From positions 1-64,000 of the forward strand of contig DASUYB010000029.1 in NCBI GenBank assembly GCA_036377595.1: a DNA stretch of 64,000 nucleotides, read 5' to 3'. The notes under the pieces were generated by a model. It made no database searches. It had not been told where the DNA came from and saw only the letters and a program-made list of their open reading frames with translations. This document shows positions 5,358 through 13,146 of the stretch, piece by piece; the first letter of the stretch is position 1; every line of letters starts with the position of its first letter. The translations under genes and the position numbers were made by a program. Source of the DNA: Longimicrobium sp. (GTDB lineage: Bacteria > Gemmatimonadota > Gemmatimonadetes > Longimicrobiales > Longimicrobiaceae).

Positions 5358-5432
5358 GGCTCACGCAGAGTCAGCAGAGTTAGCAGAGAGAACCGCTGTT
5401 CAACTGCTGACCCTGCTGACTCTGCGTGAGCC
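5358..5432. repeat. Long palindrome, family I (CTCACGCAGAGTCAGCAG), copy 1
   Basis: A ~75-bp imperfect inverted repeat: the left arm GGCTCACGCAGAGTCAGCAG is mirrored by CTGCTGACTCTGCGTGAGCC. It is bordered by an A run on the left and CTTCTTTT on the right, so it could terminate transcription in both directions. It lies between two convergent genes. Related copies occur at 9748-9823 and 53451-53524. Confidence 0.85.
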
Positions 5433-5458: not shown

Positions 5459-5662
5459 TCAGAAGCAGGTGCACCCCGGGTTGCAGACGCCGCCGTTGAA
5501 GCCGCGGGCGATGCAGGCGCCGTCGCAGCTCTCGTCCACGCACGCGCGCGCGGTGACGGGCGTCTGCGGGGCCGCGACCGCCTGTGCCGCCCCGAACGCC
5601 AGCGCCGCCGCCGCCGTCCACGCGAACGCGCCGTACCGGATGTACTTCGCCGTATGAGCCAT
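5459..5662 (-). CDS. Secreted six-cysteine defensin-like peptide
   Basis: 67-residue precursor starting at ATG 5662, preceded by GAGGAGGG. Residues 1-31 form a signal peptide ending near AQAVAA. The mature part has six Cys at 41, 46, 50, 60, 64 and 66, spaced C-x4-C-x3-C-x9-C-x3-C-x-C. The C-x3-C ... C ... C-x-C order and the segment GFNGGVCNPGCTCF match the cysteine-stabilised alpha-beta pattern of defensins, including a G-x-C gamma-core. Bacterial defensin-like peptides with this pattern are known (for example from myxobacteria). Loops 1 and 3 are shorter than usual, so another disulfide miniprotein is possible. It has no leader of the RiPP-like type found from 8.3 kb. Confidence 0.75.
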   Translation of the reverse strand: MAHTAKYIRYGAFAWTAAAALAFGAAQAVAAPQTPVTARACVDESCDGACIARGFNGGVCNPGCTCF

Positions 5663-5818
5663 ACGTCCCTCCTCGTGAGAGCGTGAATTCCCCAGCCCGC
5701 CATCGGGTACAGGGGACATTGGACGCTTTCAACGTGCCAACGTGATCTTTGATCGGCCGACGGCATTGCGCAAATTACGCGCCCATGCGTCGCGGTGGCG
5801 ATCTATGTCAAAAGGAAT

Positions 5819-5908
5819 TCACACAAAGGCACAGAGAAAAAGAGAGCCACGGAGAACGGCAATCGGTTCTCCGTGGCTCTCTTTTCCCCTTCTGTCCCTC
5901 TGTGTGAG
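5819..5908. repeat. Long palindrome, family II, copy 1
   Basis: A 90-bp imperfect inverted repeat: TTCACACAAAGGCACAGAG and GAGAGCCACGGAGAACGG on the left pair with the reverse order on the right, ending CCCTCTGTGTGAG. Three more copies of the CACGGAGG type occur at 17064-17136, 18383-18446 and 29165-29247. This one lies just 3' of the ftsH operon, where it probably ends transcription. Confidence 0.8.
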
Positions 5909-8273: not shown

Positions 8274-8501
8274 TCAGATCCGCGGCTTCGGCGCGGGGCG
8301 GAAGCGGCAGCAGACGCATCCGCTGGTGCAGTCATCGTCTCCGCCGCCGGGGCCGAAGCGCACGGTGCCGCAGACGCGCACGCACGTGGCGGTGGGCGCC
8401 GCCGCGTTGGCGTCGATGGTGCCGCGCACGTCCTCGTACTCGTCCGTCTCGAACGAGCTGACGCTGACCTGGTCCACGTTCAGGCTGAGCTTCTTCATCA
8501 T
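8274..8501 (-). CDS. RiPP-precursor-like peptide, subtype 1a
   Basis: 75 residues, with ATG-ATG after GGGAGGGAGA. The leader (MMKKLSLNVDQVSVSSFET) carries the motif shared by all eleven small genes of this region: alternating Leu, then V-x-S-F-E-T. After an acidic linker with DVRGT comes a C-terminal region with six Cys and Thr/Ser: CVRVCGT, DDDCTSGCVCC, ending RPAPKPRI. It is nearly identical in its tail to the next gene upstream. The leader resembles those of pinensin-like lanthipeptide precursors described in Bacteroidota and Gemmatimonadota; that link is from memory. No modification enzyme is encoded beside it. It is the last gene of the block read from the promoter at 9688. Confidence 0.8.
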   Translation of the reverse strand: MMKKLSLNVDQVSVSSFETDEYEDVRGTIDANAAAPTATCVRVCGTVRFGPGGGDDDCTSGCVCCRFRPAPKPRI

Positions 8502-8535
8502 TCTCCCTCCCGTGATGGATGGCCCACCCGCCCGG

Positions 8536-8763
8536 TCAGATCTGCGGCTTCGGCGCGGGGCGGAAGCGGCAGCAGACGCACCCGCTGGTGCAGTCGTCGT
8601 CGCCGCCGGGGCCGAACTTCACCGTGCCGCAGATGTGCACGCACGAGACGTAGGGCTTGGTCGCGTCGTCGTTGGCCTCCACGGTGCCGCGCACGTCCTC
8701 GTACTCGTCCGTCTCGAACGAGGCGACGTCGATCTGCTCCACGTTCAGGCTGAGCTTCTTCAT
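8536..8763 (-). CDS. RiPP-precursor-like peptide, subtype 1b
   Basis: 75 residues, ATG 8763 after AGGAGGGGGAAG. The leader MKKLSLNVEQIDVASFET is followed by DEYEDVRGT, exactly as in its neighbour, and the core has CVHICGT, DDDCTSGCVCC and RPAPKPQI. The two are recent duplicates: most differences fall between the RGT and the first Cys. Retained Cys and Ser/Thr positions with a drifting linker fit a ribosomally made, post-translationally modified peptide. It may alternatively be an unmodified Cys-rich or metal-binding peptide. It lies 34 bp upstream of copy 1a and 75 bp downstream of subtype 2. Confidence 0.8.
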   Translation of the reverse strand: MKKLSLNVEQIDVASFETDEYEDVRGTVEANDDATKPYVSCVHICGTVKFGPGGDDDCTSGCVCCRFRPAPKPQI

Positions 8764-8838
8764 CTTCCCCCTCCTGCGGTGAATGGTGCGTCCGTCGCGG
8801 GTGGGGCGGCGGCGTGGGGATCCGCGTGCCGGCGGATC

Positions 8839-9024
8839 TCAGCAATCGTCGATGGTGCAGCCGTTGAAGCACGTTCCCGCCGCGGCGGTGCCGCACAGGG
8901 CGCAGCCGGTGCGGGGGGTGGCCTCGGCGCCGCGCACGGTGCCCCGCGCCGGAACGGCCGCCGCGGTGGGGAACGACTCCACGCGCACCTCGTCGACCGC
9001 CAGCCTCAGCTTCTTCGTCATCAT
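8839..9024 (-). CDS. RiPP-precursor-like peptide, subtype 2
   Basis: 61 residues, start ATG 9024 (a second ATG follows directly), preceded by CTGGAGGC. The leader contains KKLRLAVDEVRVESFPT, so the usual Glu before the Thr is Pro. After ARGTV the core is short: GCALCGTAAAGTC, then FNGC and TIDDC at the end, with five Cys. It is the only member of its subtype in the window. The Gly-Thr pair after the leader (RGT) recurs in subtypes 1 and 3 and could mark the leader-core border; this is inference. Confidence 0.75.
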   Translation of the reverse strand: MMTKKLRLAVDEVRVESFPTAAAVPARGTVRGAEATPRTGCALCGTAAAGTCFNGCTIDDC

Positions 9025-9048
9025 GCCTCCAGGATCGGGTTCACCGGT

Positions 9049-9234
9049 TCAGACGCAGTCCCAGCAGGTCTGCCGCTCGCTGCAGAAGCAGCCGATGTTG
9101 ATCGACGTGCAGTAGCAGGTGTTGGCGCCCTGCGAGACCATCGCGGCGTTCACCGTGCCGCGCCCGGCGCCGTCGCGCGAGGTCTCGAAGCTCTCCACGC
9201 GCAGCGCGTCCATGTCCAGGTTCAGCTTGTTCAT
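9049..9234 (-). CDS. RiPP-precursor-like peptide, subtype 3a
   Basis: 61 residues, ATG 9234 with GGAGACGGAG upstream. Leader MNKLNLDMDALRVESFET, then GRGTV. The core is ANTCYCTS, INIGCFCSE, and a terminal CWDCV, giving six Cys. It closely matches the core of the next gene (NTCYCTS, NIGC, C-S/T-E), with seven extra residues at the C terminus. The Thr/Ser next to Cys would suit lanthionine ring formation, but no dehydratase or cyclase gene is present in the window. Confidence 0.78.
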   Translation of the reverse strand: MNKLNLDMDALRVESFETSRDGAGRGTVNAAMVSQGANTCYCTSINIGCFCSERQTCWDCV

Positions 9235-9280
9235 CGCTCCGTCTCCGGTCCGAAGGGTGGGGGATGCGGCGGGACGCCGC

Positions 9281-9448
9281 TCAGCACTGCTCCGTGCACC
9301 AGCAGCCGATGTTGCGCGACGTGCAGTAGCAGGTGTTGGTGCCGGTGGAGACCCCGCGGGCGTCCACCGTGCCGCGGAACCCGTCGCCGCGCGCGGTGGC
9401 GAAGGTCTCCACGTCCAGCTCCTCGACGTTCAGCGACAGCTTGTTCAT
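9281..9448 (-). CDS. RiPP-precursor-like peptide, subtype 3b
   Basis: 55 residues from ATG 9448 with GAGGAGCGC upstream; the frame remains open further 5', but the leader homology fixes this start. Leader MNKLSLNVEELDVETFAT; the usual S-F-E-T is T-F-A-T. FRGTVD follows, then the core TNTCYCTS, RNIGCWCTEQC. It is first in the block, about 210 bp downstream of a good promoter, and a stem-loop sits in the untranslated leader at 9483-9515. Paralogue of the gene immediately downstream. Confidence 0.78.
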   Translation of the reverse strand: MNKLSLNVEELDVETFATARGDGFRGTVDARGVSTGTNTCYCTSRNIGCWCTEQC

Positions 9449-9482
9449 GCGCTCCTCGCGGTGAAGGGGGATGGAAACGAAA

Positions 9483-9515
9483 CGGACCGCGCACCCGGGA
9501 TGGGCGAGCGGTCCG
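9483..9515 (-). promoter_or_regulatory. Stem-loop in the leader of the first precursor block
   Basis: CGGACCGC pairs with GCGGTCCG around a 17-nt loop, ending 34 bp upstream of the first precursor start codon. It could affect mRNA stability or translation; no riboswitch class is recognised. Confidence 0.4.
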
Positions 9516-9659
9516 TGCGGGCACGAAGGATCGTCATGCGACAGCGACAGGTGCACGCCTGCCGTTGCGCCGTCGCGGCGTCAGCCGGTACCGGAACGAT
9601 TTGCGCGTGACGCATGCGCATGCGCTCTTTCGTGAGCTTAAAGGTGCGGTGTGCGATCC

Positions 9660-11836: not shown

Positions 11837-12025
11837 TCAGTCGACGGCGATGATCGTGCCGTCCTTGCAGAGGAACGGGTCGCCGCTGGCGCTCTCGCAG
11901 CCGCCGGCGGTGGGGTTGATGCCGCAGCCGCTGGTGCAGCCGGTGCAGCAGTTGAGCGTCCCGCCCGTGCTCGGGATGGCCGCGGCCAGGAACGACTCGA
12001 CCTTCAGGTCCTCGGGATTGAGCAT
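11837..12025 (-). CDS. RiPP-precursor-like peptide, subtype 5a
   Basis: 62 residues, ATG 12025 after CGGAGGAGATCG. Leader MLNPEDLKVESFLAA: the MLNP[ED]DL start defines subtype 5, and the usual E-T after SF is replaced by L-A. The core is NCCTGCTSGCGINPTAGGCESASG, here described in two parts: CCTGC, and TSGCGINPTAGGC. A further Cys occurs in FLCKDG. Subtype 5 shares the CCTGC-x-SGCG-x2-PT-x-GGC core across four genes. Confidence 0.78.
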   Translation of the reverse strand: MLNPEDLKVESFLAAAIPSTGGTLNCCTGCTSGCGINPTAGGCESASGDPFLCKDGTIIAVD

Positions 12026-12101
12026 GGGACGATCTCCTCCGGATGGGGGAATGGAGGCTCCGGACGGGGCGGCCCTTCTCCGCCGCCCCACCCATCGCCG
12101 C

Positions 12102-12263
12102 TCAGTACAGCACCGGATCGCCGCCGCCGCTGGCGCAGCCGCTCGCCGTGGGGTTGATGCCGCAGCCGCTGACGCAGCCCGTGCAGCAGCCCAGGGTTCC
12201 GCCGGTCGGCAGGGCGGAAGAGGTCTCGAACGAATCGACCTGCAGGTCTTCGGGGTTCAGCAT
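12102..12263 (-). CDS. RiPP-precursor-like peptide, subtype 5b
   Basis: 53 residues, ATG 12263 after AGGAGCATC. Leader MLNPEDLQVDSFETSS, then GGTLG. The core is CCTGC, VSGCGINPTASGC, followed by a Gly-rich stretch and DPVLY. Six Cys in all. It is one of the shortest complete members and nearly identical to 5a and 5c in the Cys block. Confidence 0.75.
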   Translation of the reverse strand: MLNPEDLQVDSFETSSALPTGGTLGCCTGCVSGCGINPTASGCASGGGDPVLY

Positions 12264-12339
12264 GGCTGATGCTCCTGTGAGGGGACGTGAATCGGCGGAG
12301 CGGCGTCCCTCGCCGCTCCGCCCCTTGGCAGGCTGCCGG

Positions 12340-12522
12340 TCAGTACGCCAGCACCGGCTCCTGCATACAGATGACCTGCCCGCTGGCGCTGGCGCAGCCG
12401 CCCGCGGTGGGGTTGATCCCGCAGCCGCTGACGCAGCCCGTGCAGCAGAAGCCGCCGCCCGGGGCGGCGATCGCGGCGGAGGTGTCGAAGGACTCGACGT
12501 TCAGGTCGTCGGGGTTGAGCAT
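12340..12522 (-). CDS. RiPP-precursor-like peptide, subtype 5c
   Basis: 60 residues, ATG 12522 after AAGGAGACAC. Leader MLNPDDLNVESFDTSA; core FCCTGC, VSGCGINPTAGGC, then a variable tail VICMQEPVLAY with one more Cys. The conserved block is the same as in 5a, 5b and both halves of 5d; only the linker and tail vary, a pattern expected for a family diversifying outside its ring-forming positions. Confidence 0.78.
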   Translation of the reverse strand: MLNPDDLNVESFDTSAAIAAPGGGFCCTGCVSGCGINPTAGGCASASGQVICMQEPVLAY

Positions 12523-12642
12523 GGGAGTGTCTCCTTGCGATGGGGGGAATGACGCCCCAAGCGGAGCGTCGGGTGAACCGGCATCTCGACTACGGCCGGA
12601 AGGGGTCGGGTGGATCTCACCTCACGTCCGGCGAGATGCCGC

Positions 12643-12903
12643 TCAGGCAGGGCCCGCGCTCTCGCAGCCACCCTCGGTGGGGATGTAGCCGCACCCGCTC
12701 ACGCACCCGGTGCAGCAGTCGCCGGCGCCCGGCACCGCTCCCCCGCCCGCGCAGATGAACACGTCGCCGGTGTCGGCGCTCTCGCAGCCACCCTGGGTGG
12801 GGATGTAGCCGCAGCCGCTGACGCAACCGGTGCAGCATTCGCCGTCCGGACCCAGGGGGATGGTGTCGAACGAATCGACCCTCAGGTCATCGGGGTTCAG
12901 TAT
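12643..12903 (-). CDS. RiPP-precursor-like peptide, subtype 5d, two cores, ATA start
   Basis: 86 codons from position 12903. The leader is [ATA]-LNPDDLRVDSFDT, aligning from the first codon with subtype 5, but the expected ATG is ATA; the ribosome site CGGAGATCG is unchanged. The protein carries two tandem copies of the core: ECCTGC-VSGCGYIPTQGGCESA, then after a linker with one Cys, DCCTGC-VSGCGYIPTEGGCESA. No in-frame ATG, GTG or TTG occurs close upstream. Either ATA is used poorly as a start, or the gene is newly silenced; both core copies are intact, which argues against long decay. It is the first gene of block 2. Confidence 0.55.
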   Translation of the reverse strand: MLNPDDLRVDSFDTIPLGPDGECCTGCVSGCGYIPTQGGCESADTGDVFICAGGGAVPGAGDCCTGCVSGCGYIPTEGGCESAGPA

Positions 12904-13146
12904 GGGACGATCTCCGGGACGAGAGTGGGAGATGCAACGCTCCAGACGGACGTGTCCTGGGCGAGGTGCCCGGTACGCGGCCGGAAGGGAGTGGCCGCGG
13001 GTGAGGGGAGAGGGTACGGTGAGAACCGTCCCGTGGTCAGCGCGCCGGATGCAGTCGGTGTGCTCCGGGATCTTTCGTGGCGGGGCGCCAGCGAAGAGCC
13101 CCCGCGCCGCGGGCACACGGCACGGGAACGACGATGATAATGGCGT

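Follow-up and report, generated by a model that had tools for sequence, protein, structure and literature searches.

A predicted cis-defensin gene of Longimicrobium sp. belongs to a diversifying multigene family in Gemmatimonadota

The window analysed here is a 64,000 nt stretch of the Longimicrobium sp. contig DASUYB010000029.1 (positions 1 to 64,000). On its minus strand lies a small gene, hereafter the target, that is predicted to encode a bacterial cis-defensin, i.e. an exported peptide of the cysteine-stabilised alpha-beta (CS-alpha-beta) fold. The target would belong to a lineage-specific multigene family of Gemmatimonadota that is diversifying, with a conserved leader ahead of a hypervariable core of six cysteines. 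The gene, its export signal, its fold class, the family and the pattern of diversification are supported by computation. The features of the gene are as follows, where A1 is a profile of 35 six-cysteine members of the family.

5459..5662, minus strand: defensin-like precursor gene of 67 amino acids, ATG to TGA; member of family A1 (E 1.6e-18)
5667..5674, minus strand: Shine-Dalgarno sequence GAGGAGGG, 4 bases upstream of the ATG, read from the sequence
5570..5662, minus strand: Sec-type signal peptide, residues 1-31, with a basic N-region, a hydrophobic core and LAFGAAQAVAA; conserved in the family
5462..5569, minus strand: predicted mature peptide, residues 32-67, net charge -1
5465..5542, minus strand: predicted CS-alpha-beta core, C41-C66, with cysteines C41, C46, C50, C60, C64 and C66 and the gamma-core GVCNPGC; from profile searches against the PDB, a reversed control and AlphaFold

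The open reading frame (ORF) lies exactly at the coordinates given in an earlier note on this DNA (5459-5662); its strand, which had gone unstated there, is minus. Its translation is MAHTAKYIRYGAFAWTAAAALAFGAAQAVAAPQTPVTARACVDESCDGACIARGFNGGVCNPGCTCF, in which a Sec-type signal peptide, probably cleaved after A30 or A31, is followed by a 10-residue tail and then by the pattern C-x4-C-x3-C-x9-C-x3-C-x-C. The cysteine spacing, the G-x-C gamma-core (G-V-C) and the signal peptide described in that note were thus all recovered in the translation. Guanine-plus-cytosine (GC) content by codon position is 62% (first), 66% (second) and 94% (third), and a Shine-Dalgarno sequence precedes 33 of the 35 family members. 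The six-cysteine pattern was found in no other ORF in the six frames of the window, nor in 100 shuffled windows. Given the Shine-Dalgarno sequence, the GC content by codon position and the genome-wide family membership, we regard the target as a genuine gene. The other possibility is a chance ORF that happens to contain six cysteines. The ORF is short, spurious ORFs are abundant in GC-rich genomes, and an ORF on the opposite strand overlaps the target at 5469-5657. However, a chance ORF is extremely improbable in the face of the Shine-Dalgarno sequence, the signal peptide, a homologous family that crosses species with its cysteines conserved, and the constraint seen between orthologues.

Searched against the PDB as a single sequence, the target returned 17 weak matches, of which 15 were to CS-alpha-beta structures (E 0.099, which alone is not significant). 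The profile of the mature core (A2) returned 143 matches at E up to 10, with a best E of 6.4e-7, and the best 60 of these 143 were all scorpion toxins, nasonin, defensins from insects, plants or fungi, designed derivatives, or actinomycesin. A forward profile of ten sequences gave 94 matches at E up to 1 (best 2e-7), whilst the same ten sequences reversed, with identical composition and cysteine number, gave none. Similarity to solved members of the CS-alpha-beta superfamily is therefore significant at the level of profiles (E 6.4e-7 and 2e-7). Moreover, the framework C-xn-C-x3-C-xn-C-xn-C-x-C with GxC is present in the target and in the 35 aligned members. Weaker signals came from family models: Pfam Defensin_2 was matched weakly in 18 of the 35 members (best E 2.6e-4) and the actinodefensin model in 14 (best E 9.3e-5).

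Structure prediction was made with AlphaFold using two-sequence alignments. For the mature target peptide it placed a helix at residues 12-21 and strands at 27-30 and 32-35 (predicted local distance difference test score, pLDDT, 74). Five models of a homologue scored pLDDT 77-80, with the core at ~90, and the best of them had a helix at 14-23 and strands at 28-31 and 37-40. The order of a helix followed by a two-stranded sheet, which defines the superfamily, is thus present in these predicted models. Foldseek searches of the PDB with both the target and the homologue gave listed matches that were CS-alpha-beta structures nearly throughout, overwhelmingly scorpion toxins and defensins from insects, plants or fungi, the best being BmBKTx1 (1r1g; template modelling score 0.70/0.80, root mean square deviation 1.0). 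A confident fold lacking the helix and two strands, which the earlier note had named as an outcome that would undo its CS-alpha-beta interpretation, was not what structure prediction returned, and the interpretation held. Its likening of the peptide to invertebrate and fungal defensins stood in part: all six target cysteines pair off one-to-one in alignment with CS-alpha-beta peptides of solved structure, but the four-residue loop between C1 and C2 makes the core more like that of short scorpion alpha-KTx toxins, nasonin and class II bacterial defensins than like plectasin or the insect defensins, whose N-loop is longer. We consider it very probable, from the profiles and models, that the target peptide adopts the CS-alpha-beta (cis-defensin) fold.

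The host assembly comprises 208 contigs, with 96% completeness and 4.8% contamination. The target peptide found 19 matches in its own genome at E up to 0.1, and the A1 profile found 27 at this threshold and 23 at E up to 0.001. The host genome is therefore estimated to carry about two dozen related copies, strongly divergent in sequence. Members are present in 11 of 21 genomes of the host's taxonomic family (0 to 28 per genome). Across a phylum-wide sample, a match was found in 16 of 395 genomes, mostly weak beyond that taxonomic family. A contig scan with profile A4 recovered a close homologue on a contig of Gemmatimonadetes bacterium isolate RYN_364, from the same taxonomic family; a scan of genome contigs with profile A3 gave no match. 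Several members lie in tandem, at a site that is syntenic in three species and next to FKBP-like and NYN-like genes. These arrays (L036, L037 and L038, in three genomes) each adjoin an FKBP-like and an NYN-like gene, and a gyrB-like gene lies near L036, all three names having been assigned by eye from sequence. In some more remote members, a like signal peptide was also observed in front of other mature cysteine patterns, e.g. C-C-x-C endings, at G000:C34 5604-6054, G000:C34 24415-24991, G000:C15 55014-55507, L086 and L089. From these relatives the leader seems to be shared between mature domains of different kinds.

Signal peptides are conserved across the family and the non-cysteine residues of the mature peptides are hypervariable. 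Pairs of members are on average 54% identical in residues 11-31 of the signal, 25% in the tail and, once the cysteines are set aside, 20% in the core. Among nearest paralogues within a genome, the ratio of nonsynonymous to synonymous differences (pN/pS) was 1.05 for the mature region (bootstrap 0.96-1.15) and 0.54 for the signal. The best pairs between genomes, taken as orthologues, gave 0.71 and 0.55, respectively. These ratios were obtained by counting differences in sequences that are short and GC-rich, rather than from a codon model, and therefore do not prove positive selection. The pattern, as read from these sequences, is one of diversification following duplication, with moderate constraint between species.

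The immediate neighbours of the target are FtsH (TIGR01241, 802 bits), a lipoprotein-like ORF, a TPM-like ORF and a LemA/MamQ-like ORF, in agreement with the earlier note that no obvious immunity gene is nearby. The lipoprotein and TPM genes are kept in relatives. At the corresponding lipoprotein/TPM site no peptide gene was seen in these relatives and FtsH was not adjacent, within the up to ~1.5 kb examined. The target gene may have been inserted at this site, or lost elsewhere. Context was examined more widely by comparing all predicted genes around 22 stretches with one another. The only recurrent neighbours were a large protein near three loci and, at the syntenic array, its FKBP and NYN genes. 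A biosynthetic operon was rejected as no other gene family recurred with the peptides. A mobile-element origin was also rejected, there being no match in phages or plasmids (single-sequence search) or in viral contigs.

Taken together, we propose that the gene encodes a bacterial cis-defensin whose precursor would be exported through Sec and cut after AxA. Three disulfides, expected to pair C1-C4, C2-C5 and C3-C6, would form in the oxidising periplasm, leaving a 26-residue core of helix plus hairpin behind a flexible tail of 10 residues. The family would then be released across the outer membrane as a mixture of narrow-spectrum antagonists of competing microbes, with changing targets driving diversification. 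Release, the antimicrobial role and the target of the peptides are what we infer, and on the whole chain, exported antagonistic peptides included, our judgement is evenly divided. Several observations weigh against it. The AlphaFold model of the target is of moderate confidence, the five models spreading over 46.7-73.9, and no Foldseek E-value is better than a weak 0.15, which is expected for chains of 36 residues. No recurrent immunity gene, transporter or protease was found beside the family in the 22 stretches. The mature peptides are slightly acidic on average, with a mean net charge of -0.46 (range -3 to +3) across the family and -1 in the target. Lastly, xanthusin-1 of Myxococcus xanthus, a class II bacterial defensin of like architecture, had no antimicrobial activity in tests (PMC11561630).

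Some of these observations are also what would be expected if peptides of like fold and export were recognition or signalling ligands, acting in kin recognition or cell-cell communication, with their diversity serving specificity. There are precedents among the polymorphic CS-alpha-beta peptides of plants (SCR/SP11 type). The acidic-to-neutral charge, the lack of immunity genes and the inactivity of xanthusin-1 all fit such a role, as do hypervariable cores on a constant leader and paralogues that are partly conserved between species (mature pN/pS of 0.71 between orthologues). Moreover, Pfam SLR1-BP, a pollen-coat CS-alpha-beta family, was matched weakly in 14 of the 35 members. However, the genes have no receptor or sensor family as a recurrent neighbour, and a copy number ranging from 0 to 28 among close relatives would be odd for a core signalling system; we consider a signalling role somewhat unlikely.

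The closest solved folds, and the loop lengths, are those of potassium-channel toxins and nasonin. This would fit inhibitors of extracellular enzymes (proteases, amylases) or blockers of the channels of predators (protists, nematodes), made to ward off grazers or foreign enzymes, and fast diversification would suit such an arms race. The likeness to channel toxins nevertheless concerns scaffold and loop length, and fold is a poor predictor of function among CS-alpha-beta peptides; we consider this account unlikely. A role within the producer is a further alternative, whether structural in the periplasm or cell envelope or as a disulfide or metal buffer, with the defensin fold being incidental. 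Gemmatimonadota are diderm and a Sec signal is the only export signal seen, so the periplasm is the default destination; the lack of a dedicated exporter recurring beside the family would fit. Set against this, nearly complete genomes of the same genus have no members (e.g. G009, 98% complete), and hypervariable cores and swings in copy number are ill-suited to housekeeping. An envelope role therefore appears improbable.

Two palindromic repeats flank the target gene, neither of which is probably part of the peptide system.

5358..5432, no strand: 75-bp palindromic intergenic repeat (CTCACGCAGAGTCAGCAGAGTTAGCAG...) with 29-nt arms, downstream of the target gene
5833..5890, no strand: second palindromic intergenic repeat (AGAGAAAAAGAGAGCCACGGAGAAC and its inverted copy) with 25-nt arms, upstream, between the peptide gene and ftsH

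The downstream repeat resembles repetitive extragenic palindromic (REP) elements. It occurs at at least ~40 sites in the host genome and at many in the relative G001, and was not found in several other close relatives. As it is a genome-wide repeat, its position beside the target is not specific, and a repeat-borne cassette was rejected. Elsewhere in the window, at 8274-9556 and 11837-13116 on the minus strand, there is a run of small ORFs, several of which have pinensin-like lanthipeptide leaders (MKKLSLNVEQIDVASFET..., MNKLNLDMDALRVESFET...) and cysteine-rich tails. One of these scored 20.7 bits against NF038180 (cut-off 24). Across the genome there were 52 matches to pinensin-like leaders at E up to 0.1, about nine of them above the cut-off.

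If the reading as exported cis-defensins is right, this multi-copy, diversifying family would form a large new branch of bacterial defensins. Dozens of natural variants on one scaffold, in a poorly cultured phylum, would be useful for asking whether bacterial defensins kill, signal or inhibit. The earlier note's remark that few bacterial examples are described is out of date, as 74 had been catalogued by 2024, from Proteobacteria, Acidobacteria and Actinobacteria (Cardoso et al. 2024, PMC11561630); bacterial cis-defensins are known from Actinobacteria and myxobacteria (PMC8819291). The architecture of the target matches class II of Cardoso et al., compared by described architecture and not by sequence. 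Both have a signal peptide, an unstructured N-terminal tail (9-13 residues in the xanthusin type), six cysteines and a GxC gamma-core. In the present family the tail is 10-13 residues long in 35 of 35 members, and the target has a signal peptide and six mature cysteines, taking the cleavage site given above, a number that would allow the three disulfides of class II and no fourth. Secondary structure falls at nearly equal positions, with the helix at 13-19 and strands at 25-28 and 32-35 in xanthusin, against a predicted 12-21, 27-30 and 32-35 in the target. However, every class II member described comes from Cystobacterineae (PMC11561630), whereas the family here has a Gemmatimonadota host, up to 28 copies per genome and tandem arrays.

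Actifensin, actinomycesin and the actinodefensins (NF038042) share with the family the CS-alpha-beta fold, predicted in the latter, multi-copy arrays and diversification, and actinomycesin (2ru0) was matched both by profile and by Foldseek. Gram-positive bacteria are susceptible to actifensin, which binds lipid II (PMC12284004). Inhibition of cell-wall synthesis is described for it and for actinomycesin, both of them antibacterial (PMC12284004, PMC8819291). Defensins of actinomyces show positive selection (PMC8819291), and the reported maximum in one genome is an operon of seven copies (PMC6989792), against up to 28 loci here. Actifensin differs from the target in the GA-type cleavage motif of its leader, in an operon with ATP-binding cassette (ABC) transporters and in a longer first loop. 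The target had no match to NF038042 (curated cut-off 65 bits), the best family member reaching 22.9 bits, and scored 11.7 bits (E 0.25) against Pfam Defensin_2 (PF01097), for which the gathering cut-off is 20.4 bits. A search of NCBIfam with the target likewise gave no match, and all its matches to Pfam defensins were below threshold. By these curated cut-offs the target falls outside the actinodefensin and arthropod defensin families.

In its short N-loop and cysteine spacing the target most resembles alpha-KTx 19.1 BmBKTx1, alpha-KTx 5.4, cobatoxin and nasonin-1, the closest solved structures by profile (E 2e-7 to 3e-6) and by fold. These short scorpion toxins and nasonin-1 are, however, eukaryotic, and the likeness may reflect convergence on a small scaffold. 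Plectasin (profile E 0.0014) and insect defensin A (8.7e-4) share the six-cysteine framework and gamma-core, but plectasin and the insect defensins have longer loops between C1 and C2 and between C4 and C5, the latter being three residues in the target. Within the host's taxonomic family the repertoire could amount to a venom-like system, large, lineage-specific, diversifying and exported. In having no transporter or immunity genes dedicated to it, such a system would differ from the operons of actifensin and from the bacterial defensins described so far, which occur in few copies; we find the case for this finely balanced. No report of a defensin from Gemmatimonadota was found in the literature searched, which left out most subscription literature, and the family set exceeds the bacterial examples in that literature. 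Bacterial defensins themselves are already known; what looks new here is the phylum and the scale.
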